Both the position numbers and the translations under genes were made by a program. The notes under the pieces are model-generated. The model ran no database searches and had not been told where the DNA came from. It saw nothing but the letters and a program-made list of their open reading frames with translations. From a candidate division FCPU426 bacterium (lineage in GTDB: Bacteria; Oederibacteriota; Muellerivitia; Muellerivitales; Muellerivitaceae), in contig PLZG01000079.1 of assembly GCA_003152075.1 (NCBI GenBank), positions 30,675 through 94,674 on the forward strand: DNA of 64,000 bases, read 5' to 3'. Of the stretch, positions 12,902 through 29,405 are shown piece by piece; within the stretch, counting starts at the first letter, position 1; each line of letters starts with the position of its first letter.

Positions 12902-13003
12902 TTGAATTTTGAATTATGAATTTTAAATTGATGATGATTTTCGATGGTTTTTACCATCGAAAATTTCAGTAACTTAGAACTAAAAACTAAGAACTCAAAA
13001 CTG
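12902..13003. repeat. Hairpin repeat element, copy 2
   Basis: It begins with the TTTTGAATTATGAATTTT repeat, then a perfect inner stem ATTTTCGATGGT/ACCATCGAAAAT with a TTTT loop, then AACTTAGAAC and AAAACTAAGAACTCAAAAC arms. The outer arms match the element at 11904-12007; the inner stem does not. Confidence 0.75.
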
Positions 13004-13018
13004 GCGGAAAGGATATTG

Positions 13019-13789
13019 ATGAAGCGTCCCATCATCACCCTTCTTACCGACTTCGGCACCAAAGACACTTTCGTCGGGTCCATGAAGGGCGTCATTTTGG
13101 ATATATGCCCCGAAGCCCAGTTAGTTGACCTGACGCACGAAGTGCCGCCACAGGCCATTACAACTGGCGCCTTTCTCTTGAAGTCAGCCATTGATTATTT
13201 CCCCAAAGGTACCATTCATTTGGCGGTTGTGGACCCGGGAGTGGGAAGTTTCCGAAAGGCCATAGCCGTTCAATCCCGGGGCCATACCTTCGTGGGACCT
13301 GACAACGGCTTATTTTCTGCGGCATTGAAGGAATGGGGAATTGACCGGGTGGTTGAACTCACCGAGAAGAAATTCCATTTGAAAAATCCCAGTTCCACCT
13401 TTCATGGTCGGGATATCTTCGCGCCAGTGGCGGGTTATTTGGCCAAGGGAACCCCTTTCGCCAAGCTGGGCAAGAAAACGAACCATTGGGTTTGGCGGGA
13501 AATCCCCAAGCCTTTCAAGGCGTCTGCGGGCTGGACCGGGGAAGTAATGTGGATCGACCGGTTCGGCAACCTTATCACTAATTTCCAGAAACAACATCTA
13601 TCCAAGCCTTTTCGCCTGAAGGTCGGAAAGACTGTCGTTTTGAGTCTGGCCAACCATTATGCCGAAGCCAAAAGGGGAACGGTGATTGCATTATTGGGTT
13701 CTTCGGGTAATTTGGAAATCTCAGTAAACGGCGGCAGCGCCGCCCAAAAACTAGGGGTTGGTATCGGCGCTTCAGCGGTTCTTTGTTAA
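13019..13789 (+). CDS. S-adenosylmethionine hydrolase (SAM hydroxide adenosyltransferase family)
   Basis: A 256-residue protein of the DUF62 / SAM hydrolase family, related to chlorinases and fluorinases, which splits SAM into adenosine and methionine. Signatures are LLTDFGTKDTFVGSMKG, VDLTHEVPPQ, VVDPGVGSFRKAIAV, FVGPDNGLFSAAL, FHGRDIFAPVAGYLA and IDRFGNLITNF. ATG 13019 follows GGAAAGGA; the track start at 12944 runs into the upstream repeat. This is the intact copy of a pair; the other is at 16460-17229. Confidence 0.92.
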   Translation: MKRPIITLLTDFGTKDTFVGSMKGVILDICPEAQLVDLTHEVPPQAITTGAFLLKSAIDYFPKGTIHLAVVDPGVGSFRKAIAVQSRGHTFVGPDNGLFSAALKEWGIDRVVELTEKKFHLKNPSSTFHGRDIFAPVAGYLAKGTPFAKLGKKTNHWVWREIPKPFKASAGWTGEVMWIDRFGNLITNFQKQHLSKPFRLKVGKTVVLSLANHYAEAKRGTVIALLGSSGNLEISVNGGSAAQKLGVGIGASAVLC

Positions 13790-14340: not shown

Positions 14341-15768
14341 ATGCCGACTCAAAAAATTTTATTTTTTTTATTTTCAACAGTATTCTTGAGCCTATTGGGC
14401 ACCCAAGAAGGTTGGGCCGTTCGTCCCCTATCCGCCAATATTGCCTTGGTCGCCGGAGGGGAGGGTCGTCCTGGTTTCAAGGATGGAAGTTTTACTTCGG
14501 CCCTTTTCAATAGGCCCCTCGGCTTGGCCGTCAGTGAGGATGGGTCCTACCTCTACGTCGCCGATTCCTACAACAACCGCATCCGCATCATCCATCTTGA
14601 TCAGAACAATGAGGTCACCACCCTTGCCGGACAGGATTTGGCGGGAAGATTGGACGGCCCTTTAACCATGGCGCAATTCAACCATCCTTGCGGGGTTCTT
14701 GTCCTACCGGGTGATTGCCTGGTGGTAAACGATTTTGGCAACGAGCTCTTCCGCCTCATGGACCTGAAAGCCGGAACCGTCACCACCCTCGCGGGAGGCC
14801 CCGCGAACCCTGTTCGATCCGTTACCCTGACGCCCTCGAGTGTCCCTGCGGCGCAAGTTTCGATGAAAGGCGTCAGGGAGTTGGCTTACATGCCCGCGGC
14901 CCATTCGATCTTCTATACCCAACCCGAATTGGGTGCCTTAAAAAGGCTGGATTTGAAGACCGGTCTGGTTTCAACGGTGCTCGACAAAAATATCCCAATT
15001 CCCAATCCGGCCGCTCTCTGGTGCCAGGGAAACAAGCTTTACGTGGCGGACAAGGATATGCCCCAGGTCTTCGAGATGGATTGGAAGGATAACGCCGCCG
15101 CAAACCCTTTGGCGATGCCGGCTCCCCTGAGTAAAGTGCTTTCCATGTCCCTGAACGGCGGCATCCTTTATACCCTCTTGGCAATCCCCGGCGTTCCAGC
15201 CCAGCGATTCTTCCTCGATAAGCAGTATTGGGACAACGAATATAAGGACGGGTTCATTAATCAGTTCAATGGCAAGTTGGTGTCTTTTAGAAGTCCTTGG
15301 GGTGACACACTCCCTCCAGAAGCCCTTTTCCCGCCCGGGGGGGATATTTCCTTTGCCCCGTCCATCGGTTTTGCGCCGGACCCTTCGGACAGCCGGAAGT
15401 TTTATGTCTCCAAACCTGATTACAACATGGTTGTTTCTTTCCGGGATCTGTTTGGTTTCGATTGGAACCCCTCCGAAGGCGAACGTAATTCCAACGGCGT
15501 GGATGAACCTGAGTATCCAGCCCAAAAACCCAAAAACACCTACCGAATTATCATCGTGGGGGATTCCCGGTCCGCGGAGGTGCTGAATTACCCTTTTCAA
15601 TCGGATTACCACTCCCTGAAAAGACCTAATGGTAATCTCGAATTTCCCCATAACTTGAGCCTCGCCCCGCAAATCGAGCGGGAGCTCAATTTCCAGGCCG
15701 CGCTGGATGGGGTTCCCTTGAACTATGAAGTTTTCAATTGTAGTCGTCATGGGGATTATTTAATCTGA
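14341..15768 (+). CDS. NHL-SGNH exported protein, 5' part (gene cut by a TGA)
   Basis: 475 residues up to the stop. A signal peptide (FFLFSTVFLSLLGTQEGWA) is followed by NHL-type repeats (FNRPLGLAVSEDGSYLYVADSYNNRIRIIH, FNHPCGVLVLPGDCLVVNDFGNELFRLMD), then the SGNH block I IIIVGDSRSAEV near residue 400. The frame stops at TGA 15766-15768 and then continues without shift to 16416. The paralogue at 20661-22664 has Trp at the aligned place (its WPTYEVPAVV against PIYEIPGVV after the stop), so TGG probably became TGA. If translated as seen, the product has the propeller and only the start of the hydrolase. Confidence 0.8.
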   Translation: MPTQKILFFLFSTVFLSLLGTQEGWAVRPLSANIALVAGGEGRPGFKDGSFTSALFNRPLGLAVSEDGSYLYVADSYNNRIRIIHLDQNNEVTTLAGQDLAGRLDGPLTMAQFNHPCGVLVLPGDCLVVNDFGNELFRLMDLKAGTVTTLAGGPANPVRSVTLTPSSVPAAQVSMKGVRELAYMPAAHSIFYTQPELGALKRLDLKTGLVSTVLDKNIPIPNPAALWCQGNKLYVADKDMPQVFEMDWKDNAAANPLAMPAPLSKVLSMSLNGGILYTLLAIPGVPAQRFFLDKQYWDNEYKDGFINQFNGKLVSFRSPWGDTLPPEALFPPGGDISFAPSIGFAPDPSDSRKFYVSKPDYNMVVSFRDLFGFDWNPSEGERNSNGVDEPEYPAQKPKNTYRIIIVGDSRSAEVLNYPFQSDYHSLKRPNGNLEFPHNLSLAPQIERELNFQAALDGVPLNYEVFNCSRHGDYLI

Positions 15769-15816
15769 CCCATCTACGAAATTCCCGGCGTCGTCAAGCG
15801 CAACGATATCGATCTC

Positions 15817-16416
15817 GTGGTCCTATTTATGACCGATCATTTCCCCCCTGAAACTTATTTCAATCACCCCCTAACTTCGGACGGTATCCCGAAATTTCCC
15901 AATGACGATATGGAATTCCTGGTGAACCCCCCCCTAAAGCGACTTCCACCAAGCGGGACGCCCCGGAAGTTTTATGATTTTTGCAAGGCCCATGGCTTGG
16001 TGCATGTCCGCGGAAACGGGTTGGATTTTGACGCAAGTGTATTGTCCAATCCGGAAGTGCACGATTGGCTGATCGAATTATATGGAAAGCCCTTGGATAT
16101 GCTCAACCGAAAGCTTTCCGGCATGAAAACCTCCAATGGCCAACCCGTACGGCTATTGCTCTGTAACACCTACACGGGACGTAGCTGGGATAAACAAATT
16201 GACATGGCCATATGGCCGGAGGTGGCTAAGAAATTCAATTTTCCCATTTGGGACCTGAACGCCGAGATGAACGCTTTGAATCTTTCCTTTTTTCCCCTGA
16301 CGTCAGACGGCTCTCATTTGAACCCTGATGGTGCGGTCTTTTTTGGCAGGCTTTTAGCTCACGACCTCATCCGGGATAAACTGATTCCCTTTAAAACAAA
16401 GGATTTAGGGGAATAA
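15817..16416 (+). CDS. NHL-SGNH protein, 3' part after the in-frame stop
   Basis: Same reading frame as 14341-15768; codons resume straight after the TGA at 15769, and the track start is simply the next internal ATG. It encodes the rest of the SGNH hydrolase domain (DIDLVVLFMTDHFPPETYFN, LLLCNTYTGRSWDKQID) and the block V region SDGSHLNPDGAVFFGRLLAHDL with the likely catalytic His. No ribosome site precedes the ATG. Without read-through it is probably not translated as a functional protein, and I treat the whole 14341-16416 gene (691 codons) as a likely pseudogene or sequencing error. Confidence 0.65.
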   Translation: MVLFMTDHFPPETYFNHPLTSDGIPKFPNDDMEFLVNPPLKRLPPSGTPRKFYDFCKAHGLVHVRGNGLDFDASVLSNPEVHDWLIELYGKPLDMLNRKLSGMKTSNGQPVRLLLCNTYTGRSWDKQIDMAIWPEVAKKFNFPIWDLNAEMNALNLSFFPLTSDGSHLNPDGAVFFGRLLAHDLIRDKLIPFKTKDLGE

Positions 16417-16459: not shown

Positions 16460-17229
16460 ATGAAAAGACCGATTATTACTTTATTAACCGATTTCGGCAC
16501 CCGGGACACCTTCGTTGGGTCCATGAAGGGTGTCATCCTGGGAATTTTCCCTGAGGCCAGTTGGTTGACCTGACGCACGAAATGCCGCCGCAAGCCATCA
16601 CAACCGGAGCCTTTCTTTTGAAATCAGCTATCGAATATTTCCCCAAAGGAACAATCCATCTGGCGGTAGTAGACCCGGGGGTAGGAAGTTTCCGCAAGGC
16701 CATCGCCCTTCAATCCCAGGGCCACACTTTCGTGGGCCCGGACAACGGTTTGTTTTCCGCCGCCCTGAAGGAATGGGGGATCGACCGGGTCGTGGAACTC
16801 ACTGAGAAGAAATTCCATTTAAAAAATCCAAGCTCCACCTTCCATGGCCGGGATATTTTCGCTCCCGTGACGGGTTATTTAGCCAAGGGAACCCCTTTCG
16901 CCAAACTTGGCAAGAAAACAAATCATTGGGTTTGGCGGGAAATCCCCAAGCCTTTCAAGGTTTCGGCGGGCTGGACCGGGGAAATAATGTGGATCGACCG
17001 GTTCGGCAACCTAATCACTAATTTCCAGAAACAACATCTGTCCAAGCCTTTTCGCCTGAAGGTCGGAAAGGCTGTCGTTTTGAGTCTGGCCAACCATTAC
17101 GCCGAAGCCAAAAGGGGAACGGTGATTGCATTATTGGGTTCTTCGGGTAATTTGGAAATCTCAGTAAACGGCGGCAGCGCCGGCCAAAAACTAGGGGTTG
17201 GTATCGGTACTTCAGCGGTTCTTTGTTAA
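16460..17229 (+). pseudogene. Second SAM hydrolase gene, frameshifted near the start
   Basis: ATG 16460 begins MKRPIITLLTDFGTRDTFVGSMKGVIL, matching the copy at 13019. At about 16559 one C is missing (GAG GCC AG TTG against GAA GCC CAG TTA), so the frame ends after 37 codons. The remaining 222 codons (track ORF 16561-17229) are intact and close to copy 1. The last 190 bases are almost identical to copy 1 while the first 100 differ often, suggesting gene conversion. Confidence 0.85.
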
Positions 17230-17276: not shown

Positions 17277-17777
17277 TCAAAAGATCTCGAATTTATCAAA
17301 AATCTTTTTCATCTGTATTTCCGTCAAGGGCACCTTGTGCTTGATGAGTTTCGAGGCCTTGGATTTCAAGAACTCGAAATGAGCCACTTGCTGAAGGCTG
17401 TCCCACTTGGGCAGCCCGTAAGAATCCCTTTCCAAGACATAAACGATATCCACCTTAACCCGATCGGCCGTGGCGTCCTGGGGATAAAGGCGTGACACCA
17501 GCTGAAGGGCCGCGTCGGCTAACCGGCTTTTTTTATCCTTCACCTCAAAATTCAGCTTGAAGTCCTGGGCGTCCCAGAAGAAATGGACATATTCCGCTTT
17601 GTCCGTCACTTGGCAATTCTTCTTGAACCACTCGTCCCAGGGAACCTTATTGACAATCCACTTGGCGAGGGGCTTGGCCTGAAGGGAGGGTGGAGACGAC
17701 AAAGAAGGATCCCTCATTTCCTGGGCATCAACCACGGTCCCGGTTAAAAACATGAAAATCGCGAGGACGAATTTCAT
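17277..17777 (-). CDS. Exported protein of unknown function in the acyltransferase operon
   Basis: A 166-residue protein with a signal peptide (FVLAIFMFLTGTVVDAQ) and a mature domain rich in charged and aromatic residues (PWDEWFKKNCQVTDKAEYVHFFWDAQDFKLNFEV, VKVDIVYVLERDSYGLPKWDSLQQVAHFEFLKSKASK). AGGAGG lies upstream of its ATG, 13 bases after the MBOAT stop, so it is the last gene of the minus-strand operon. I do not recognise the family. Its position suggests a periplasmic partner of the acyl transfer system. Confidence 0.65.
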   Translation of the reverse strand: MKFVLAIFMFLTGTVVDAQEMRDPSLSSPPSLQAKPLAKWIVNKVPWDEWFKKNCQVTDKAEYVHFFWDAQDFKLNFEVKDKKSRLADAALQLVSRLYPQDATADRVKVDIVYVLERDSYGLPKWDSLQQVAHFEFLKSKASKLIKHKVPLTEIQMKKIFDKFEIF

Positions 17778-17790
17778 AAAAACCTCCTGA

Positions 17791-18993
17791 TTAAATTAAA
17801 AAAAGATGACGGGTGAATTTAACCACTTGATCCATCGGATAAAAAAACAAAAGCCAGCCATAAGCGACAAAAACATTGGTGACGGCCACATCCAGGAAAC
17901 GGCTGAAGCGCCAAGCGGCCCATTTTTGGCCGGTGCCCGATTTTTCCCAAAGGTTGTGCAAGGCCAGCCCGGCCCCATGATACATTCCCCAAAGGCCGAA
18001 ATGCCAGCTGGCCCCGTGCCAGAGCCCGCAGACGAACATGGTCACCATCAGGTTGATAAATTTGCGGGCCAAACTGACCCGGTTTCCCCCCAAAGGAATG
18101 TAAATGTAATCCCGGATCCAACTGCTCAGGGACATGTGCCACCGGCGCCAGAACTCCGTGATGTTCCGGGCGATATAGGGAAAGTTGAAATTGGCGGGCA
18201 GGTCCAACCCGATCATCTTCCCCAAACCGATGGCGATGTCGCTGTAGCCGCTGAAATCAAAAAGGATCCGCACGGAAAGAAGGGCCATGAGTAGGCAGAC
18301 GGGGCCAAAGGTCAGGTCCGTGCGTTTTTCCAGGAGGTGGATCATCATCGTGGCGTTGTCGGCGATGACCAGCTTCTTAAAAAAACCCAAAAGTACCTGG
18401 GCCAAGCCCAACAAGGCTTTGGAGGCCGGGGGCCGCGGTAGGCCCTCCTCCACCTGGGCGAGGAAAGGCTGAAAACGCTTGATGGGGCCTGAAACGATCG
18501 AGGGGAAAAAAATGCAAAACACCGCGAACTTGAAGGGGTTGCGGACCGGTTCACCCTTGCCGTGGTACACGTCCGTCAGGTAATGCACAAACTCAAACGT
18601 AAAAAAAGAAATGGCCAGGGGCATGGCCACCTGCACGACATGGGCAGTCAGCCAATCCTTGGCCACCCCCTGGGTTAATGGAACAACGGGGGTAAAGAGC
18701 AGCACGCGGTATTTATAAAAAACCAAGGCTAAAACCGGCACGGACAGCCCCAGGAACAACACCCTGGTTTTGGCGGGGCCTGGGGGAAGCTTGGCGATCC
18801 AGAGCGCGATGAAATAAGTGATGATCGCCATGACGATGATGGGGGTTACCCCCGCCGGGCCCGCGAAATGGTAGTGGAAAATAAAGCAGCAAACCAGCAG
18901 GTAATAAAAACGAAGCCGGTCATGCGGCAGGAGCCAAAGAAACAAATAAAAAAAAAGGAAAAAGATCAAAAACCAGCTGGTGTTGAAGATCAT
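17791..18993 (-). CDS. MBOAT-family membrane O-acyltransferase (DltB/AlgI-like)
   Basis: A 400-residue polytopic inner-membrane protein of the MBOAT family. It starts MIFNTSWFLIFFLFFYLFLW and has about ten membrane segments. Key stretches are SFFTFEFVHYLTDVYHG, FCIFFPSIVSGPIKRF, YSDIAIGLGKMIGL, NITEFWRRWHMSLSSWIRDYIYIPLGGNR and GLWHGASWHFGLWGMYHG, with the catalytic His near residue 326. MBOATs pass acyl groups across the membrane to an extracellular acceptor. At 400 residues it is nearer DltB than the longer AlgI. Its ATG directly follows the stop of the 40-residue peptide gene, with no gap. Confidence 0.93.
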   Translation of the reverse strand: MIFNTSWFLIFFLFFYLFLWLLPHDRLRFYYLLVCCFIFHYHFAGPAGVTPIIVMAIITYFIALWIAKLPPGPAKTRVLFLGLSVPVLALVFYKYRVLLFTPVVPLTQGVAKDWLTAHVVQVAMPLAISFFTFEFVHYLTDVYHGKGEPVRNPFKFAVFCIFFPSIVSGPIKRFQPFLAQVEEGLPRPPASKALLGLAQVLLGFFKKLVIADNATMMIHLLEKRTDLTFGPVCLLMALLSVRILFDFSGYSDIAIGLGKMIGLDLPANFNFPYIARNITEFWRRWHMSLSSWIRDYIYIPLGGNRVSLARKFINLMVTMFVCGLWHGASWHFGLWGMYHGAGLALHNLWEKSGTGQKWAAWRFSRFLDVAVTNVFVAYGWLLFFYPMDQVVKFTRHLFLI

Positions 18994-19116
18994 TTAAAAA
19001 TCCACATAAATGAATTTAGAGGCCGACAGGTCGCCCGAAAATAGAAGGATGGCCAGGAACAACAGGAATAAAATCACGCCGGTTCCAAAACCTTTCCAGA
19101 AGTCCTTATTTTTCAT
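18994..19116 (-). CDS. 40-residue membrane peptide with a DltX-like C-terminus
   Basis: Not in the ORF track. On the minus strand, ATG 19116-19114 overlaps the TGA of the SGNH gene (ATGA), and its TAA abuts the ATG of the MBOAT gene. The peptide is MKNKDFWKGFG, one membrane helix (TGVILFLLFLAILLFSG), then DLSASKFIYVDF at the extreme C-terminus. DltX of Gram-positive dlt operons is likewise a one-helix peptide of about 50 residues ending in F-I/V-Y-x-x-F. As I recall the published work, that Tyr carries the acyl group between DltB and DltD. Gene order and ending both fit an acyl-relay peptide; the function is inference. Confidence 0.8.
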   Translation of the reverse strand: MKNKDFWKGFGTGVILFLLFLAILLFSGDLSASKFIYVDF

Positions 19117-20192
19117 TTCCACGGCTCCATGGCTTTGATGACATCCTTCGCGAATTGCTCGTTACCCGCCGGGGTTAGGTGGCAATGGTCCAGAAAATAA
19201 GTTGGAGAAAAGCGGTCCGCCCAATCGGAATAAAAAATGCCTTTTTTAGAATAGGGCTTTAGGAATGCGGCCAATGTTTTTCGATTTTTCTCGAAGCTGG
19301 GCTTATCCAGATAACTTCCAAGGAATTTCGGATTTTGAGGGACTAGGAAAATGCTCGCCTGAACCCGCCGTTCGGCCCATTGATCCAGGATTTTTTGAAG
19401 GCATTTAAGCGGCAGGCCGCGCTTGTCCCAAAGGTAAGCCTGGTAATAGGACGCGACTTTTTGCTTCAATGCCGCTTCGGCGATTTCCACCTGGGTTTCG
19501 TTCCTGCCCAGCACTTGCTCCAGCGCGCGTTGGAAGAAATCCTTTTGACTGGGGTAATACCAAAGCGTCTTCAACATTTGGGTTTCCCGAAACAGAAACC
19601 AGTGATCGCCCATCTCGGCATAGAGCCGGTCGCTCAATTGGGCTTCTTTCGAGAGGGGGACATCAGGAGCCAGCCTTTTTTGAATATCTTCCGGTAAATC
19701 GCTCAAGAGAAAATTTCTCGAAAGAGCCTTGGGGCCCTCGGCAAATTCTTTGGCGAACATTCGAAAATTAAGGAAAAGTATGATTCGGCGGGGCGGGTGT
19801 GGCATAAATTCCAAATTCAACCCCAGGATGTCCGGAAGCAAAAGGCCATCCGATCCCAAGCTGAGCGCGGTTTCGCTTACAGACTGGAGCCGGTCCTTTA
19901 AAAACTTCGACAGGGTGTTATCGCGGGCGCCAGAAACCCGGTGTTCCATTAAAGCGCTCGCTCCCAGGACGCTGTCCCCCAAAAGCAACAGCGAGCTGTC
20001 GTCTGTCCAACGTCGGGGACTGTACCGCAGCCGGTCCCTCAGTTCCACCAGGCTGGTCATGTCCCCAGAGGCATCAAAATGCTTATACCAGGACCCAGCC
20101 GGAACGGCCAGGCGCAGAAAGACTTCAGCCAATAACAGTAAACCAAAAAAAGAAAGGGTGGCACCGGCCAGAAAAGATTTGGAAAGGTTCAT
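19113..20192 (-). CDS. Membrane-anchored SGNH protein (AlgJ/AlgX/DltD-like)
   Basis: A 359-residue protein with an N-terminal signal anchor (FLAGATLSFFGLLLLAEVFLRLA) and a periplasmic SGNH-hydrolase domain. Block I is LLLLGDSVLGAS (catalytic Ser near residue 73), and block V is FLDHCHLTPAGNEQFA with the DxxH pair near residues 336-339. Such proteins take the acyl group moved by an MBOAT and place it on a polysaccharide or teichoic acid. It is the first gene of the operon SGNH - 40-aa peptide - MBOAT - exported protein. The acceptor polymer is unknown; no alginate or cellulose synthase is in the window. Confidence 0.85.
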   Translation of the reverse strand: MNLSKSFLAGATLSFFGLLLLAEVFLRLAVPAGSWYKHFDASGDMTSLVELRDRLRYSPRRWTDDSSLLLLGDSVLGASALMEHRVSGARDNTLSKFLKDRLQSVSETALSLGSDGLLLPDILGLNLEFMPHPPRRIILFLNFRMFAKEFAEGPKALSRNFLLSDLPEDIQKRLAPDVPLSKEAQLSDRLYAEMGDHWFLFRETQMLKTLWYYPSQKDFFQRALEQVLGRNETQVEIAEAALKQKVASYYQAYLWDKRGLPLKCLQKILDQWAERRVQASIFLVPQNPKFLGSYLDKPSFEKNRKTLAAFLKPYSKKGIFYSDWADRFSPTYFLDHCHLTPAGNEQFAKDVIKAMEPWK

Positions 20193-20349: not shown

Positions 20350-20455
20350 ATTATTGCGAGTTTTATTCCAGGGAACCAGTTTGTCCCGGATAAGGTCGTG
20401 TGCGATCAGCCTCCAGAAAAAAGGTTAAACCATCGGGGTTTAAATGAGACCCTTC
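20350..20455 (-). pseudogene. 3' relic of a third NHL-SGNH gene
   Basis: On the minus strand, two frames give EEGSHLNPDG..TFF and then WRLIAHDLIRDKLVPW. The two paralogues read SHLNPDGAVFFGRLLAHDLIRDKLIPF and FFFGRLMAHDLIRDGLIPW at this place. A frameshift separates the two pieces and nothing of the rest of the gene remains. The remaining 20193-20349 and 20456-20660 hold no gene I can support. Confidence 0.75.
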
Positions 20456-20660: not shown

Positions 20661-22664
20661 TTATTTTACGGTGACCGGAAGGAGCGTGGCTTCAGATGAA
20701 TAGAAAGATTTAGTCCAGGGAATGAGCCCGTCCCGGATCAAGTCGTGAGCCATAAGCCGGCCAAAGAAAAAGTGTCCGTTAGAATCAAAGTGGTCATTGC
20801 CAGCGCCTTCCGACATGGGAAGATAAGAAAATCGTAAAGCCGTCATTTCATCGGTAAGATTCAAAAACGGAACGTGAAATCGCGCGGTTAAATCCTTCCA
20901 AAATTCCGAATATAGTAAACATGCCCTGAAAAATGCGGTGGGGGTGAAACAGACTAAAAACTGAACGGGTTGGCCGGAGGTGGTTTTCATGACCGAAAGT
21001 TTTTGTTTCAATAGGTCAATGGATTTCCCGTACAACTGCACCAATGTGTCGCGAATTTCCGGGTTCAAATCCAAGTCGTAATTGAAAACGATGTTGTTTT
21101 TTTCAATACGAACTAACTTATGTGCCTTGCAGAGATCGAAGAAATTCCGAGCTGGGCCGTCTGGAATCCTCAGAAGGGGCGGTTTTAACAGATACTCTGG
21201 GTCGATTTGGTTCGCAGGGATGCCATCTTGGGTGATGGGACGCTCGAAATAAGCGGCATAGGGATTAAATCCAGTGGGAGTCGGCGGGTGCAGGATGATC
21301 ACTAAATCGATGTCGTAATTTTGAACCACAGCCGGGACCTCATAAGTCGGCCATAGGAAAAGAGGGATAGAAGCGGATTTATAAAGAGTCAAGACCTCGA
21401 AATTCATCGGCACATCGTCGAGAACCGCGAGGGTATTGAGTTCCAACCCCATCCGTTCGGAAATACAAACCGGATGCGTATTAGGGCCGCTGGAAATATA
21501 CGCGGAACGAGAATCGCCCACGAAGAGAATCCGGAAAGTCCGGGGCGGTTTGTGGGCGGGGTATCCAAGTGCACCATCCGAAGGGGTGAATAGCTCGCGG
21601 AAGGAGGTGACAATGTTACAGGTCGGGTTGACGAAATAAAATTTTCGCCCATCCAGTGGATCGGGAACAAAACCTATGGGGTCCTCCGGGTTAAGGTTGA
21701 TAATGGAAGGGATTTTTACCCCCGAATTGGGAATTTCATTTCCCCAAGCGGATACAAAGGTCACCGGTTCAATTTGAGGCGCTAGTCGCATCAAGGGAGA
21801 CTCAGAACCGGCTTGTATGGCATAGAGGTAGTTTTCATTAATCGCTAGGGCCAATACTTTGGAAAGGGTTTTTCCGGCTGGCACCAAAGCAGGTTCTGTC
21901 CCATTTTTCCAGTCAAACTGAAAAACTTGGTTAAGGTCCCGGTCGGCAACGTAAAGCATATTGGTGGATCCGCAAAGGGCGGCCGGATGGGGCAGTTCGG
22001 TCCTATTGTGGAGGACTAGGGTTACTTGACCGGTTTTCAAATCCAGCCTTTTGAGGGTCCCTTGGTCGGGTTGGGAAAAAAAAAGGGAATCGGCGGTTGG
22101 AAGATAGACCATGTCCCTGATTCTGGCCATGGAAACCTGGGTGCCGGTGCTTTCAGCCTCGCTTTCCAGAGAGGTAGAAGGGATGCTTGCTGTAACCGGC
22201 TCGAAGGCCGTACCTGTGAGGGTGGAAACAGTTTTGCTTTTCATATCCACGAGACGTAGGAATTTGTTGCCGAAGTCATTGACGACTAGACGTTCTTCCG
22301 GAAGGGCAACTACTCCTTGGGGTTGCTTAAAGCTAGCTGAGGCCAAGGAGCCGTTCTGGCTTCCTGGATTTTCCTGCCCCACAAGGGTGGTGACCTTATT
22401 GTTTTGGTCTAAGTGGATTTCCCGTATCCGATTGTTGGCTGAATCAGCGACAAAGAGCCGGGTGCCATCGGGACTGAGGGCCAAGCCGAGAGGTTTTTTA
22501 AAAAAAGCCGAAGTGAAGTCCCCGTCACGGAACCCTCCCGTTCCTTCGCCGGCCACCAAAGCGATAGAATTGGACATGGGCCGGATCGCCTTCGCTTCCG
22601 GGGCGCACAATAGGGTTAAGAATGTGGCCGAAAATAGAAAAAGTGAAGTTTTTAGGGCCGGCAT
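20661..22664 (-). CDS. NHL-repeat plus SGNH-hydrolase exported protein (intact paralogue)
   Basis: 667 residues. A signal peptide ends near PEAKA. Residues of about 30-330 form an NHL propeller (FKKPLGLALSPDGTRLFVADSANNRIREIH, FKQPQGVVALPEERLVVNDFGNKFLRLVD). Residues of about 375-650 form an SGNH domain with block I RILFVGDSRSAY and a C-terminal NDHFDSNGHFFFGRLMAHDLI. The Asp usually three residues before the catalytic His is not at that position (GNDH), unlike the other copy (SDGSHL), so the catalytic pair may differ. It is probably a secreted or periplasmic esterase-like protein. It lies beside the MBOAT/SGNH operon on the same strand, which hints at polysaccharide acyl turnover. Confidence 0.82.
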   Translation of the reverse strand: MPALKTSLFLFSATFLTLLCAPEAKAIRPMSNSIALVAGEGTGGFRDGDFTSAFFKKPLGLALSPDGTRLFVADSANNRIREIHLDQNNKVTTLVGQENPGSQNGSLASASFKQPQGVVALPEERLVVNDFGNKFLRLVDMKSKTVSTLTGTAFEPVTASIPSTSLESEAESTGTQVSMARIRDMVYLPTADSLFFSQPDQGTLKRLDLKTGQVTLVLHNRTELPHPAALCGSTNMLYVADRDLNQVFQFDWKNGTEPALVPAGKTLSKVLALAINENYLYAIQAGSESPLMRLAPQIEPVTFVSAWGNEIPNSGVKIPSIINLNPEDPIGFVPDPLDGRKFYFVNPTCNIVTSFRELFTPSDGALGYPAHKPPRTFRILFVGDSRSAYISSGPNTHPVCISERMGLELNTLAVLDDVPMNFEVLTLYKSASIPLFLWPTYEVPAVVQNYDIDLVIILHPPTPTGFNPYAAYFERPITQDGIPANQIDPEYLLKPPLLRIPDGPARNFFDLCKAHKLVRIEKNNIVFNYDLDLNPEIRDTLVQLYGKSIDLLKQKLSVMKTTSGQPVQFLVCFTPTAFFRACLLYSEFWKDLTARFHVPFLNLTDEMTALRFSYLPMSEGAGNDHFDSNGHFFFGRLMAHDLIRDGLIPWTKSFYSSEATLLPVTVK

Positions 22665-23793: not shown

Positions 23794-23836
23794 GAATTTT
23801 TCCTACCTTTCAATCGTTGGATTTTATCTTGTCTGG

Positions 23837-23842
23837 TAAAAT
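23837..23842 (+). promoter_or_regulatory. Possible -10 box giving a leaderless autotransporter mRNA
   Basis: TAAAAT lies 7 bases before ATG 23850, and no Shine-Dalgarno sequence is seen. TTGGAT at 23817 could be a -35 box with a short 15-base spacer. If used, transcription would start at or next to the ATG. Confidence 0.35.
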
Positions 23843-23849
23843 ACAACCA

Positions 23850-26800
23850 ATGCAATTCAAAGCCAAAAATCAATTCAAGGCCGTCCGAGGCCTTTTCTTT
23901 TTGACAGGAATTTTGGGATGGCTTTTTGCCGCCTCTTCTTCCGCTCAGACTTGGTTGAACAGTCCTGCCACAAATGATTGGAACACGGGTACCAACTGGG
24001 ATACCAGTACTATCCCGAACGCCACTTCCGCCTTCGCCACCTTCGGCGCTTCCAACACAGCCAGCGTTTCCCTAAGCGCCAGCGTGACCCTAGACAGCAT
24101 ACTTTTTAACCCTGGAGCCCCTTCCTATACGCTTAATACCAACGGCAACAGTTTCTCCCTCGTCGGTGGTGGAGTGACCAATAGCTCGGGCGCCGGCCAA
24201 ACCTTTAATATAGATGGATCGGGCGCCGTAAGTTTTATGAACGGGGCGACTGCTGGGAACGCCACGTTAGCAAATGCGGGTCTTCTGAGCTTCCATAACA
24301 CTTCTACCGCCGCTGCGGCCTCGATCAACAACGGAAATCTCTTTTTGCTTTACGATACCACCACCCTCGCAAACTCCACCGTTGTTAATAACAATAATAT
24401 GGTTATGGATAATAACAGCACAGCCGGAAATTCCAAGATTACCAACGGCGGAAATATTAACCTATTCACGAACGCGACTGCCGGAAGCGCCACTCTCATA
24501 AATAATAATAATATATATTTCCACAACACCTCGACCGCGGGGGGCGCAACCATTCTCAACAATAATTATTTGAGTTTCGCCGACAGCTCCTCGGCCGTGA
24601 CCGCCAACATCAACAACGGGAATACCCTTGAATTTTACAACAGCTCCACCGCCGCGAGCGCGACCCTCATCAATAACAGCAACCTTAACTTCTATGACAC
24701 CTCGACGGCGGCCAGCGCTGCCATCAGCAATACCACCACGGGGAACCTTACATTCTTGAACAATTCCAACGCGGGGAGCGCCTCTATTTTCAATGCCAAT
24801 AATATCGTCTTCCGGGATAACGCCTCCGCGGGAAGCGCCACTATCTTCAACTCTGTCAATCCTACCTCCCTGAATTTTTACAACAATTCCACGGCCGCCA
24901 ATTCCACCATTCTCAATAACGACAGCGTGGCCTTTCAGGACAGCTCCACGGCGGGCAGTTCCACCATCACCAACAACGGCCATTTGGTATTCGCGTCCAA
25001 TGGCTCAACCACGTTTTCGACCGCGGGAAACGCCCAAATACAAAATAATTACGCCCTTTATTTCCAAAATTACTCCACAGCGGGCAACTCGTCCATAAGC
25101 AACGGAGGGGTCACTGATTCCGTTTTGAATTTTTCCAATAACTCGACGGCGGGAAGCTCAACCATTCTCAACAATTTCAACTCCACTCTTAACTTCACTG
25201 ACAATACAACGGCGGGGCATTCCACCATCACCAATAACGCAACCCTTTTTTCATTCAACTTGAATTCAACCGCGGGTAGTTCCGCCATCACCAACAACGG
25301 CAACCTAACCTTCAACGACAACTCGACGGGAGGTAACGCGCTTATTAGCAACCAAAGCCACCTCTATTTCCTGAACAACTCCTCGGCCGCTTCCGCTTCC
25401 ATCACGAGTAACATTTATTTAGAGTTCAACGATACCTCGAACGCCGGGAGCGCCACGATCGCGAATACAGGCACGGTGAGATTTTACACAAGCGCTTCCG
25501 CCGGGAGCGCCTCAGTCTCCAATGCTTCCGGAGCGACGATTTTGTTCAACCAAACCTCCTCGGCGGGAAGTGCGACCCTCGCCAACAACGGTTATCTTCA
25601 ATTCGGAGATACCACGACCGCGGGCAATTCCAACATTATCAATGACGGCTATCTGTTGTTCAGCAATACCTCCACCGCGGGGGCGGCCACTCTTACCACC
25701 AACGCGGGAGGCACCATTGTTTTCGACCAATCTGCGGACAGCGGGACCGCCCGTCTCATTGTCAACAGCGGGGGTCTTTTCGCCATTGACAGCCTTGGCA
25801 GTTCCAATTTTAACGTGGGCTCGATCGAGGGGGGCGGGACCTTCAAATTAGGTTCCCATACCCTGACCACGGGGTCGAACAATCTGGATACGACGGTTTC
25901 GGGAACCATCCTGGACGGGGGATCTTTGACAAAGGTAGGCACCGGAACCTTGACCCTCGGCGGAATCAACCTTTACAGCGGCGGAACCGGCCTTAACGGC
26001 GGAACAATCGCCGTCAGCAATGAAAATAATCTGGGAAACGGCGACCTGTCATTTAACGGAGGGACACTCAAGACCACCGCGGGTATTACTTCCTATAAGT
26101 TAATCGCGCTTCCCGGAGACGGGACCTTCAACTCCAACGGATTTAATTCCACCTTGGGAGGAGTCATATCCGGGACCGGGACCTTCACCAAAACCGGCTC
26201 GGGCGCCCTGACTTTATATGGAACCAACACCTATAGCGGAGGGACGAGCCTCAATGGTGGAATGATCGACATCCTTAACGACAACAACCTCGGAACGGGT
26301 GACTTGTCATTCAACGGGGGGACGCTTCAGGTCCTCGCGGCCTTCACTTCGGCTAAAAACATCGCCCTTCCCGGAAGCGGAACCTTTGATTCCAATGGCA
26401 ATAATTCCACTCTTTCCGGTGTGATATCCGGGGGCGGGACCTTCACAAAAACCGGCACGGCCGCGCTGACCCTGACTGGAACCAACACCTATAGCGGGGG
26501 AACAAGCTTCCTCGGCGGAACCATTGATGTGGGAAATGACAACAACCTGGGTACGGGAAATTTGACCTTTAACGGTGGAACGCTTCAATTCACGGCTGGC
26601 CTTGCCTCTTCTAAAAACATCGATGTCATTGGCAACGGAACCTTTGATACCAATGGGTTTAATTCATCCTTGTCCGGGGTGATTTCGGGCGGGGGAACTT
26701 TTATTAAAACAGGCGGGGGCAGCTTGACCCTAAATGGAACCAACAGCAACCCGGGTTTGACGGACATCAATAGCGGAACTTTACTTTTGGGTGGGGCGGG

Positions 26801-29405
26801 GGTTTTATCAACTGCGGCCGCGGTATCAGTGGAAGCCGCTGGAATCCTGGACCTGGGCGGGAATGATTTAACGCTGGGCTCCTTAAGCGGTTCGGGGGGT
26901 GTTTCACTGGGCTCCCATAACTTGACCCTGGGGGACAGCACCAATAATGGTTTTGCAGGTGGCATTGCTGGCACAGGGGCCCTCTCCAAAGTCGGTTCGG
27001 GAGCCCTGACTTTGCTTGGAAACAACTCCTATAGCGGCGGAACCAGCTTCATCGGCGGAACCATTGACGCAAGCCAAGACAGCAACCTGGGGACGGGCAA
27101 CCTCATTTTCAATGGTGGAACCCTTCAAACAACGGCGGTCTTCGCTTCCAACAAAAACATTACGCTTGCCGGCAACGGAACTTTTGATTCCAACGGTTTT
27201 AACTCAAATCTTTTAGGGGTGATATCGGGGGGCGGGGCCTTAACCAAGATTGGTTCGGGTGCCTTAACGATAAGCGGAAACAACACTTATAGCGGCGGGA
27301 CCAACCTCAATGGCGGAACCCTTGATGTGAACAACGATAACAACCTGGGAACGGGGGATTTGACCTTTAACGGTGGAACCCTTCAGTCTCTCTCGGGACT
27401 CACCTCTTCCAAGAATATCGCTCTTGCCGGCAATGGGACCTTCGATTCCAACGGGTTTAATTCCACACTATCAGGGGTCCTATCGGGATCGGGTGCCTTC
27501 ACGAAGACGGGCGCTGGAATCCTAAACTTGAGTGGAACCAACACGAATAATGGGGTGGTCAACCTCAATGGCGGCATCCTCGACGTGGGCAACGATAACA
27601 ATCTGGGGGCAGGTAGCCTTGCCTTTAACGGCGGAACACTGCAAACCACGGCGGGAATCGTTTCGGCCAAGAAAATCGCCCTTATCGGCAACGGGACCTT
27701 CGATAGTTACAATAATAACTCCACCCTTTCCGGGGTGATTTCGGGCTCGGGCTCGCTTACCAAGGTGAACACCGGAACGCTGATTTTAACGGGAGTCAAC
27801 ACCCTTACTGGGGCAATCGTACTCAATGCCGGCACTTTGGCCATGGGGGTAAGCACCGCCTTTGGCTCGGGCTCGGTCGTGGTGAATGGAGGAATCCTAG
27901 CGGACAACGGATCCCCGATTACGGTCAATGCGGGAGGGAATTACACGCAAACCGGTGGAACCTTGCAAATTGGCCTCGACGGCCCACCAGGTACTGCAGT
28001 TACTGGAGACCGCTTGAATTTTACCGGCGCGGCTAATCTTGGCGGCACCTTGGGTGTGACAATCCGAAACGGCTACGTTCCCCTAATCGGGGACAGTTTC
28101 CAATTCCTCTCCGCCTCCAGCGTCAGTGGCAGGTTCAGTCAATTAAGCGCGCCTTCCCAAGGGATGAGGTGGTACCCCGAATACCAATCCACAGGAGTTT
28201 TTCTTCTGGCTATCCAACCCACCTTGGCGATTTCAGGAACCGCGAACCAAACCGCCGTGGGCGCGTGGCTGGAAAAAAATCTTTTGGATAAGGGGCTGGA
28301 CTCGCTCGTGCCTTCCCTGGGAGTCCAATCAACCACAAGCCTCCAGTCCAATTATGATTTAATCGCTCCAGAGGAATTAGCCTCGCTCTATCAAATGGGT
28401 TTCGCGGCGATTGATTCCCAAACCGGTATCGTTGAGGGCCGCTTAGCCAGCCTTCGTGGAATACCCTCAGCCAAGGCTTCCCGTTATTCCTCAAATGGGG
28501 ACGGCCCTCTTTTCGCGGCCAACTTATCCGCGGACACCGAAAGGGACATGGCCCGGTCGGCTTTGTTGGAAGAAAACCTCCAAACCCCGGAGAATGAATG
28601 GGACGTTTATGCCCAAGGGAACGGCGATTTTGCGTCGATCAAGGCTGATGCCAACGCGGGCGGATATCAGTTCTCAACCGCTGGGTTCACTGCTGGGGCC
28701 GACCACCGTTTCACCAAGGAACTGGCGGGCGGCGTTCTTTTAGGCTACGGACAGGGAACAGTCACCCCGACCGCTGGCGGAAAGTTGCAATCCACGGGGG
28801 GCTTGGCGGGACTTTACGGCGGATGGCACCAGAACGGCCTTCACGCGGAGGCCCAAGTGTCGGCGGGTATCAATCAATACACCACTCAAAGGGTGGCTTA
28901 TGGTGGGACAGCCACCGGAAGCACCCAGGGACTTCAGTACGTGGGTCAATTGAACTTGGGATATGAGTGGAAAAAGGGCCGTTTTACCATGGGGCCTTTC
29001 GCCTCGGGTCAATATAGTTATGTTGGAATTAACAGCTTCACCGAACAAGGGTCCCTCGCGCCTTTAACCATCCCAAGCCAGGGCGAAACTTCGTTTAGCA
29101 CTAAAATTGGAATGGACGCAAGCCCCCGTTTTAAAATGGATAGCCTGATTCTGATACCCAATATTAGCGCGGCTTGGAAATATCAATTCCAGGGATACCA
29201 GGACAATTTAACCGCCGGGTTGGCCAGTGGAGCCAATTTCACGGTTCAGGGTCCTGCGACCGGCCAAAGCGAAGCCGTTGTGGACGTGGGGGTAAGCGCC
29301 AACTTTAATCAAGTTCTCTCTGCAAACCTGCAATATGAGGGAAAACTTGGTTTTTCCAATTATGATTCCCAAAGTTTTTCAGGTGGTTTGAGCTACGGGT
29401 TTTAA
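23850..29405 (+). CDS. Giant type V autotransporter with two kinds of passenger repeat
   Basis: 1,851 residues from ATG 23850; the track start is a TTG 33 bases earlier. The signal peptide ends near SSSAQ. The passenger has two repeat zones. Residues of about 110-690 hold roughly 30 short Asn/Ser/Thr/Ala-rich units of the form STAGSATITNNGNLxFxNN. Residues of about 700-1300 hold longer passenger-associated units (YSGGTSLNGGTIDVxNDNN ... LSGVISGGGTFTKTG) with an 86-residue period. A beta-helix is expected. After GRFSQLSAPSQGMRW and a linker, a C-terminal beta-barrel runs from about WDVYAQGNGDFASIK to the terminal SGGLSYGF. The passenger would be displayed outside the cell, perhaps as an adhesin. 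The ligand is unknown. Confidence 0.9.
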   Translation: MQFKAKNQFKAVRGLFFLTGILGWLFAASSSAQTWLNSPATNDWNTGTNWDTSTIPNATSAFATFGASNTASVSLSASVTLDSILFNPGAPSYTLNTNGNSFSLVGGGVTNSSGAGQTFNIDGSGAVSFMNGATAGNATLANAGLLSFHNTSTAAAASINNGNLFLLYDTTTLANSTVVNNNNMVMDNNSTAGNSKITNGGNINLFTNATAGSATLINNNNIYFHNTSTAGGATILNNNYLSFADSSSAVTANINNGNTLEFYNSSTAASATLINNSNLNFYDTSTAASAAISNTTTGNLTFLNNSNAGSASIFNANNIVFRDNASAGSATIFNSVNPTSLNFYNNSTAANSTILNNDSVAFQDSSTAGSSTITNNGHLVFASNGSTTFSTAGNAQIQNNYALYFQNYSTAGNSSISNGGVTDSVLNFSNNSTAGSSTILNNFNSTLNFTDNTTAGHSTITNNATLFSFNLNSTAGSSAITNNGNLTFNDNSTGGNALISNQSHLYFLNNSSAASASITSNIYLEFNDTSNAGSATIANTGTVRFYTSASAGSASVSNASGATILFNQTSSAGSATLANNGYLQFGDTTTAGNSNIINDGYLLFSNTSTAGAATLTTNAGGTIVFDQSADSGTARLIVNSGGLFAIDSLGSSNFNVGSIEGGGTFKLGSHTLTTGSNNLDTTVSGTILDGGSLTKVGTGTLTLGGINLYSGGTGLNGGTIAVSNENNLGNGDLSFNGGTLKTTAGITSYKLIALPGDGTFNSNGFNSTLGGVISGTGTFTKTGSGALTLYGTNTYSGGTSLNGGMIDILNDNNLGTGDLSFNGGTLQVLAAFTSAKNIALPGSGTFDSNGNNSTLSGVISGGGTFTKTGTAALTLTGTNTYSGGTSFLGGTIDVGNDNNLGTGNLTFNGGTLQFTAGLASSKNIDVIGNGTFDTNGFNSSLSGVISGGGTFIKTGGGSLTLNGTNSNPGLTDINSGTLLLGGAGVLSTAAAVSVEAAGILDLGGNDLTLGSLSGSGGVSLGSHNLTLGDSTNNGFAGGIAGTGALSKVGSGALTLLGNNSYSGGTSFIGGTIDASQDSNLGTGNLIFNGGTLQTTAVFASNKNITLAGNGTFDSNGFNSNLLGVISGGGALTKIGSGALTISGNNTYSGGTNLNGGTLDVNNDNNLGTGDLTFNGGTLQSLSGLTSSKNIALAGNGTFDSNGFNSTLSGVLSGSGAFTKTGAGILNLSGTNTNNGVVNLNGGILDVGNDNNLGAGSLAFNGGTLQTTAGIVSAKKIALIGNGTFDSYNNNSTLSGVISGSGSLTKVNTGTLILTGVNTLTGAIVLNAGTLAMGVSTAFGSGSVVVNGGILADNGSPITVNAGGNYTQTGGTLQIGLDGPPGTAVTGDRLNFTGAANLGGTLGVTIRNGYVPLIGDSFQFLSASSVSGRFSQLSAPSQGMRWYPEYQSTGVFLLAIQPTLAISGTANQTAVGAWLEKNLLDKGLDSLVPSLGVQSTTSLQSNYDLIAPEELASLYQMGFAAIDSQTGIVEGRLASLRGIPSAKASRYSSNGDGPLFAANLSADTERDMARSALLEENLQTPENEWDVYAQGNGDFASIKADANAGGYQFSTAGFTAGADHRFTKELAGGVLLGYGQGTVTPTAGGKLQSTGGLAGLYGGWHQNGLHAEAQVSAGINQYTTQRVAYGGTATGSTQGLQYVGQLNLGYEWKKGRFTMGPFASGQYSYVGINSFTEQGSLAPLTIPSQGETSFSTKIGMDASPRFKMDSLILIPNISAAWKYQFQGYQDNLTAGLASGANFTVQGPATGQSEAVVDVGVSANFNQVLSANLQYEGKLGFSNYDSQSFSGGLSYGF
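25972..27640 (+). repeat. 258-bp tandem coding repeats in the autotransporter passenger
   Basis: Units start at about 25974, 26231, 26489, 27029, 27287 and 27545, each with TATAGCGG(A/C/G)GG followed by an AACCTGGG(A/T)ACGGG-type motif. The spacing is 258 bases (86 codons). A divergent unit lies around 26750-26990. This is protein-coding repetition, not a CRISPR array. Confidence 0.85.

Follow-up and report, generated by a model that had tools for sequence, protein, structure and literature searches.

In the current model, MBOAT-SGNH systems take one of two architectures: the Dlt system has a separate shuttle and a carrier donor, whereas in the other MBOAT-SGNH systems the shuttle is fused to the MBOAT. 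DltX bears D-alanine on the tyrosine of its FxYxxF motif; in PatA this motif forms the protein's own C-terminus and bears acetyl (PMC12148441). A 2025 paper describes the non-Dlt MBOAT-SGNH pathways as systems without a DltX-like microprotein (PMC12148441). A related logic, in which an acyl-Tyr is followed by an acyl-Ser across the membrane, is found in the AT3-SGNH enzymes such as OatA (PMC12148441), although their membrane domain is unrelated and lies within one polypeptide, and no microprotein takes part.

That Gram-negative Dlt operons can include DltX has been on record since 2017 (Kamar 2017, PMC5541007). An operon of this kind on a Klebsiella electrica plasmid (L123, 3436-7488) lies between IS elements and has the order DltD-DltX-DltB-AMP ligase-carrier; its DltX ends in FEYQKF, is annotated as "hypothetical" and is missed by the Pfam DltX model. 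On a Ligilactobacillus murinus plasmid (L079, 3690-5098), a dltB gene adjoins a bactofencin-type bacteriocin gene, with none of dltX, dltA, dltC and dltD annotated nearby. Here we describe loci in several Gram-negative phyla that contradict the two-architecture model. The reference locus lies in a 64,000-nucleotide stretch of DNA from a candidate division FCPU426 bacterium, the whole of which is called the window below.

Results

A 40-codon gene lies between the SGNH and MBOAT genes

The initial annotation of the window had proposed a hidden gene at 18994-19116, wedged between an SGNH gene and an MBOAT gene and encoding a DltX-like peptide. Translation places this gene on the minus strand (19116 to 18994), where 40 codons encode a 40-aa microprotein, MKNKDFWKGFGTGVILFLLFLAILLFSGDLSASKFIYVDF, ending in a stop; the plus strand over the same interval is interrupted by stops. 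The wedged arrangement is as it had been described. The SGNH stop (TGA, 19115-19113) and the microprotein start (ATG, 19116-19114) overlap in an ATGA at 19113-19116, and the microprotein TAA ends at 18994, directly abutting the MBOAT ATG that begins at 18993. The ATGA overlap likely reflects translational coupling, and 4-base overlaps were also seen at L040, L041, L048, L051, L052 and L054. An alternative in-frame GTG at 19122 would lengthen the microprotein by two residues.

The likeness to DltX was borne out as well. As in the Dlt system, where a separate one-helix microprotein of about 40-50 aa with an FxYxxF end is found with an MBOAT and an SGNH/DltD-like protein, the product has one transmembrane helix (hydrophobic core at residues 10-26, 19039-19089, mean Kyte-Doolittle 2.79), an N-in charge bias, a C-terminal FIYVDF and, between helix and hexapeptide, a spacer of about eight residues. 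The hexapeptide F35-I-Y37-V-D-F40 is encoded at 18997-19014, and Tyr37 (codon 19006-19008) is the proposed acyl carrier. Judged from the charge bias, this is a single-pass microprotein whose FxYxxF C-terminus would be extracytoplasmic, as in DltX. Beyond the helix and the tail there is little sequence similarity to DltX, and a microprotein profile compared with PDB sequences matched only unrelated membrane helices.

Codon comparison within the window's family gave a pN/pS of 0.126 for the microprotein, and the last 16 codons showed 0 nonsynonymous and 56 synonymous differences (summed over pairs), so purifying selection is strongest at the tail. By these measures, the 40-codon ORF is a real gene.

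The adjacent MBOAT is tail-less, and both partner proteins retain catalytic residues

The window genome contains one MBOAT by Pfam, the 400-aa product of the gene at 17791-18993 (minus strand). Its PF03062 match, its conserved catalytic His and the MBOAT fold of its AF2 model (pLDDT 84) place it in the MBOAT superfamily. The best PDB match of the model was DltB (6bug, TM 0.73), a rank that is not specific because no other bacterial MBOAT is among the PDB matches. In the alignment to 6bug, His326 (codon 18016-18018) corresponds to the catalytic His336 of DltB and His286 to His289, and both residues are invariant among relatives. The protein ends in RHLFLI and has no fused hexapeptide, and it differs in both length and C-terminus from the fused type (about 460-530 aa, ending FxYxxF). 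PatA/PatB and the AlgI-type systems resemble the present one in having an MBOAT and an SGNH protein, no carrier protein, an FxYxxF tail and a Y-x-P-L-G-G segment, but their tail is the MBOAT's own C-terminus, set on two extra helices, whereas here a separate gene encodes the tail and the MBOAT has about 70 residues fewer.

The SGNH protein (19113-20192, minus strand; 359 aa with an N-terminal membrane anchor) contains the Ser, Gly, Asn and His blocks of the SGNH superfamily, and Ser74, Gly116, Asn142, Asp335 and His338 are invariant in 13 SGNH homologues; the Pfam GDSL models scored below cut-off. The twelve best matches of its AF2 model (pLDDT 85) were all DltD structures, with modest TM-scores of 0.41-0.47 (by query length), and sequence-profile comparison revealed no link between the window's SGNH family and the Klebsiella DltD.

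A separate FxYxxF microprotein accompanies tail-less MBOATs in several phyla

The proposal of the initial annotation was to stand or fall with the conservation of the ORF and its terminal Tyr in related genomes, and both proved to be conserved across several phyla. The ORF is kept in four further genera of the window's family and in three more distant genomes of the phylum. The four same-family genera have the order SGNH-peptide-MBOAT and an identical tail, SGDLSASKFIYVDF. The three genomes from other families (L031-L033) encode an MBOAT 54-55% identical to that of the window; no peptide lies directly upstream of this MBOAT, and the peptide, with the tail DLSSSKFIYVDF or DLSSSQFIYVDF, is found downstream of a second SGNH gene. 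Named relatives place the host phylum as the FCPU426/Goldiibacteriota type. Relatives with a short MBOAT were found in FCPU426, Acidobacteriota, Verrucomicrobiota, Planctomycetota, Pseudomonadota, Oligoflexia and one Melainabacteria MAG, the MAGs concerned being labelled Acidobacteria, Thermoanaerobaculia, Opitutae, Xanthobacteraceae, Melainabacteria, Planctomycetota and Oligoflexia.

Every named-relative locus with intact flanks had a small ORF with one helix and an FxYxxF end, and small FxYxxF ORFs were also found in an extra Pseudomonadota genome, which came from the survey and was absent from the query set, and in three additional Verrucomicrobiota genomes. When 1.5 kb around each MBOAT was searched (1.9 kb downstream for three loci), all 26 assessable short-MBOAT loci had a separate small ORF ending in FxYxxF by motif alone, and 25 of the 26 remained positive with a strict hydrophobicity cut; the exception, L052, has the ORF, which falls below the cut. 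No hydrophobic small ORF of this type was found at any of 50 fused-MBOAT loci (Fisher p = 3e-19 for short- versus fused-MBOAT loci, which are not all independent because some are close kin), and the opposite strand yielded 0 FxYxxF small ORFs in both groups. The microprotein is thus paired exclusively with tail-less MBOATs.

Among 20 aligned microproteins, no residues are invariant except the hexapeptide's F, Y and F, and the same invariance is seen in a 12-peptide alignment that includes three DltX. The three genes are arranged in at least five ways, namely SGNH-peptide-MBOAT, MBOAT-SGNH-peptide, peptide-SGNH-MBOAT (L055), SGNH-MBOAT-peptide (L056) and MBOAT-peptide-SGNH (L132), where the SGNH genes of L055, L056 and L132 are assigned from position and motif only. 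This diversity argues that the peptide is retained by function and not by position.

Two further features were seen in the more distant loci. The microproteins of L045-L055 and L129, a type found in Opitutae, Planctomycetota, Xanthobacteraceae and Melainabacteria, carry, where the helix ends on the outer side, a second conserved motif, HYxLYR or HYxLHR, which is absent from the FCPU426-type microproteins. A Planctomycetota locus (L054, 3473-8548) has two tail-less MBOATs, an SGNH gene after each of them, and a single microprotein, as if one shuttle served both MBOAT-SGNH pairs.

Tail-less MBOATs form a clade of their own

In a tree of 61 MBOATs, the tail-less non-Dlt MBOATs form one group (95/92), DltB, including a Gram-negative DltB, forms a separate group (100/99) and the fused type forms a third (83/95), with the PatA/AlgI-type MBOATs nearer than DltB to the split MBOATs. 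The C-terminal FxYxxF tail is found in all parsed long MBOATs and is absent from the split MBOATs in the tree. We rejected the idea that the window MBOAT is a fused-type protein that has been truncated, given that tail-less MBOATs recur, together with their peptide partners, in a clade with good support.

The split clade is rare, being found in 4 of 194 Verrucomicrobiota, 1 of 392 Planctomycetota, 2 of 399 Pseudomonadota and 1 of 396 Acidobacteriota genomes (seed genome included in each); within the host phylum it occurs in 8 of 45, the window's own included. MBOAT scores in Verrucomicrobiota are bimodal, at 574-624 bits for the split and at most 309 bits for the fused type. The split loci bear on the origin of both kinds of system. 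The tree is unrooted and does not give the order in which they arose: the split form could be the ancestral arrangement whose single fusion gave the fused class, or it could be the product of a single early fission.

Discussion

Proposed mechanism and alternative explanations

We consider it very likely that the ORF encodes a DltX-type acyl-shuttle microprotein, the partner of the short MBOAT and the SGNH protein that are encoded beside it. The microprotein would be anchored by its one helix with the C-terminus outside. At His326 the MBOAT would receive acetyl or some other acyl group, most likely from acyl-CoA, and hand it to Tyr37 of the FIYVDF tail; the acylated tail would swing to the SGNH protein, where Ser74 would receive the acyl group for transfer to a polymer of the cell envelope, probably a glycan. 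Because PatA uses acetyl-CoA (PMC12148441), acyl-CoA would by analogy be the likeliest donor here and is probably the donor of the split system.

One alternative is that the locus is a divergent but true Dlt system, in which D-alanine or another amino acid comes from a carrier loaded by an AMP-ligase encoded elsewhere. Gram-negative Dlt operons do exist, and the Klebsiella one has the same order, DltD-DltX-DltB, ahead of its AMP-ligase and carrier genes. The SGNH model is closest to DltD, and the DltB model TIGR04091 spans the whole window MBOAT with a score of 194 bits (cut-off 375). Three related microproteins fall just below the 25-bit cut-off of Pfam DltX (PF12459; L032 22.2, L033 18.7 and L031 17.0 bits). 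That model matched neither the window peptide nor anything else in the genome; among the controls, two Gram-positive DltX scored 72.6 and 53.2 bits and a Gram-negative DltX was also unmatched. Against a true Dlt system, the window peptide has no adjacent DltA or DltC. The initial annotation had noted the lack of both, and for DltA this now extends to 21 genomes: no canonical DltA was found in the window genome, where the only hits were generic AMP-ligases (71 bits, cut-off 560), and none of 20 further genomes has a DltA over cut-off, close to the MBOAT or otherwise. For DltC the statement holds for the operon of the window, where no carrier protein was seen. Moreover, the MBOAT groups apart from DltB, the Gram-negative DltB included. 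DltC docks on helix HC of DltB via Met302, Val305, Ile306 and Met309 (PMC11035591), and in the alignment the site of this helix is occupied in the window MBOAT by YIPLGGNR (18079-18102, minus strand). Y-I-P-L-G-G stands at this site in 23 of 24 split MBOATs (the remaining one has YIKMGG), 24 of 31 fused MBOATs and 0 of 6 DltB; the split MBOATs lack the DltC-docking helix. We regard a true Dlt system as unlikely.

Alternatively, the peptide might be a structural or assembly subunit that joins the MBOAT and the SGNH protein, with the acyl group passing via another residue. The Dlt microprotein does bind MBOAT and SGNH proteins (PMC12148441), but the invariant residues of the present peptides are in the tail and not in the helix, and in PatA this hexapeptide bears a covalently bound acetyl group (PMC12148441); we therefore find a purely structural role quite improbable. 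The shortness of the ORF and its place in a tight gap might even suggest a chance or spurious reading frame, an explanation to which we give almost no weight, as it is already refuted by the conservation of the sequence in several gene orders and several phyla and by the pN/pS and Fisher values given above.

Returning to the shuttle reading, DltX is already known, also from Gram-negative Dlt operons, and the peptide is therefore not a new kind of part; what is new is its presence within a non-Dlt MBOAT-SGNH clade. A 2023 Nature Microbiology paper reportedly named the shuttle motif, and its supplement might list such peptides. We think it likely that the bacterial MBOAT-SGNH acyltransferases include a third class, represented by these loci, which has a stand-alone shuttle peptide, an acyl-CoA donor, a distribution over several Gram-negative phyla and a clade of its own between DltB and the fused AlgI/PatA type. 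It is very probable that the peptide encoded here between two acyltransferase genes moves acyl groups across the membrane, by way of a predicted acyl-Tyr. If the detached shuttle and the carrier donor are separable in this way, the shuttle is open to study in trans, and its tail can be swapped or mutated, without the Dlt carrier. Because such short peptides are easily missed, the annotation of a tail-less MBOAT is incomplete without them.

Accompanying genes and the putative acceptor

The initial annotation had seen a minimal machine in a Gram-negative host. "Minimal" is not wholly apt for this locus: in FCPU426 and Acidobacteriota two further genes accompany it. One encodes a 667-aa NHL-propeller protein with C-terminal SGNH-like motifs (GDSR, DHF; 20661-22664, minus strand), homologues of which adjoin the system in both groups, and the other a 166-aa small secreted protein (17277-17777, minus strand), which lies downstream of the MBOAT and is conserved in the FCPU426 and Acidobacteriota loci. 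The Gram-negative assignment was borne out: the host belongs to an FCPU426-type candidate phylum, and the window encodes an 1862-aa autotransporter with passenger repeats and a beta-domain (23817-29405, plus strand), which is evidence that members of this phylum have an outer membrane.

No obvious glycan cluster lies beside the operon in the window. One Opitutae and one Acidobacteriota locus lie among GHMP kinase, SIS and HAD genes, with an NTP-transferase gene as well in L049. Such neighbours are consistent with heptose-nucleotide synthesis and point to a surface glycan as the putative acceptor.

The window holds a second NHL-SGNH gene (14341-16392, plus strand), 44% identical to the copy at 20661-22664. 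It has an apparent frameshift, the N-terminal part corresponding to the ORF at 14341-15768 and the C-terminal part lying in another frame. SAM hydroxide adenosyltransferase genes lie on either side of it (12944-13789 and 16561-17229, plus strand), the second of which lacks, in its frame, the beginning of the N-terminal domain. Between the NHL-SGNH and SGNH genes, a stretch at 20359-20421 (minus strand) encodes 21 residues that share 71% identity with the 3′ end of the NHL-SGNH gene, perhaps the trace of a lost tandem copy.
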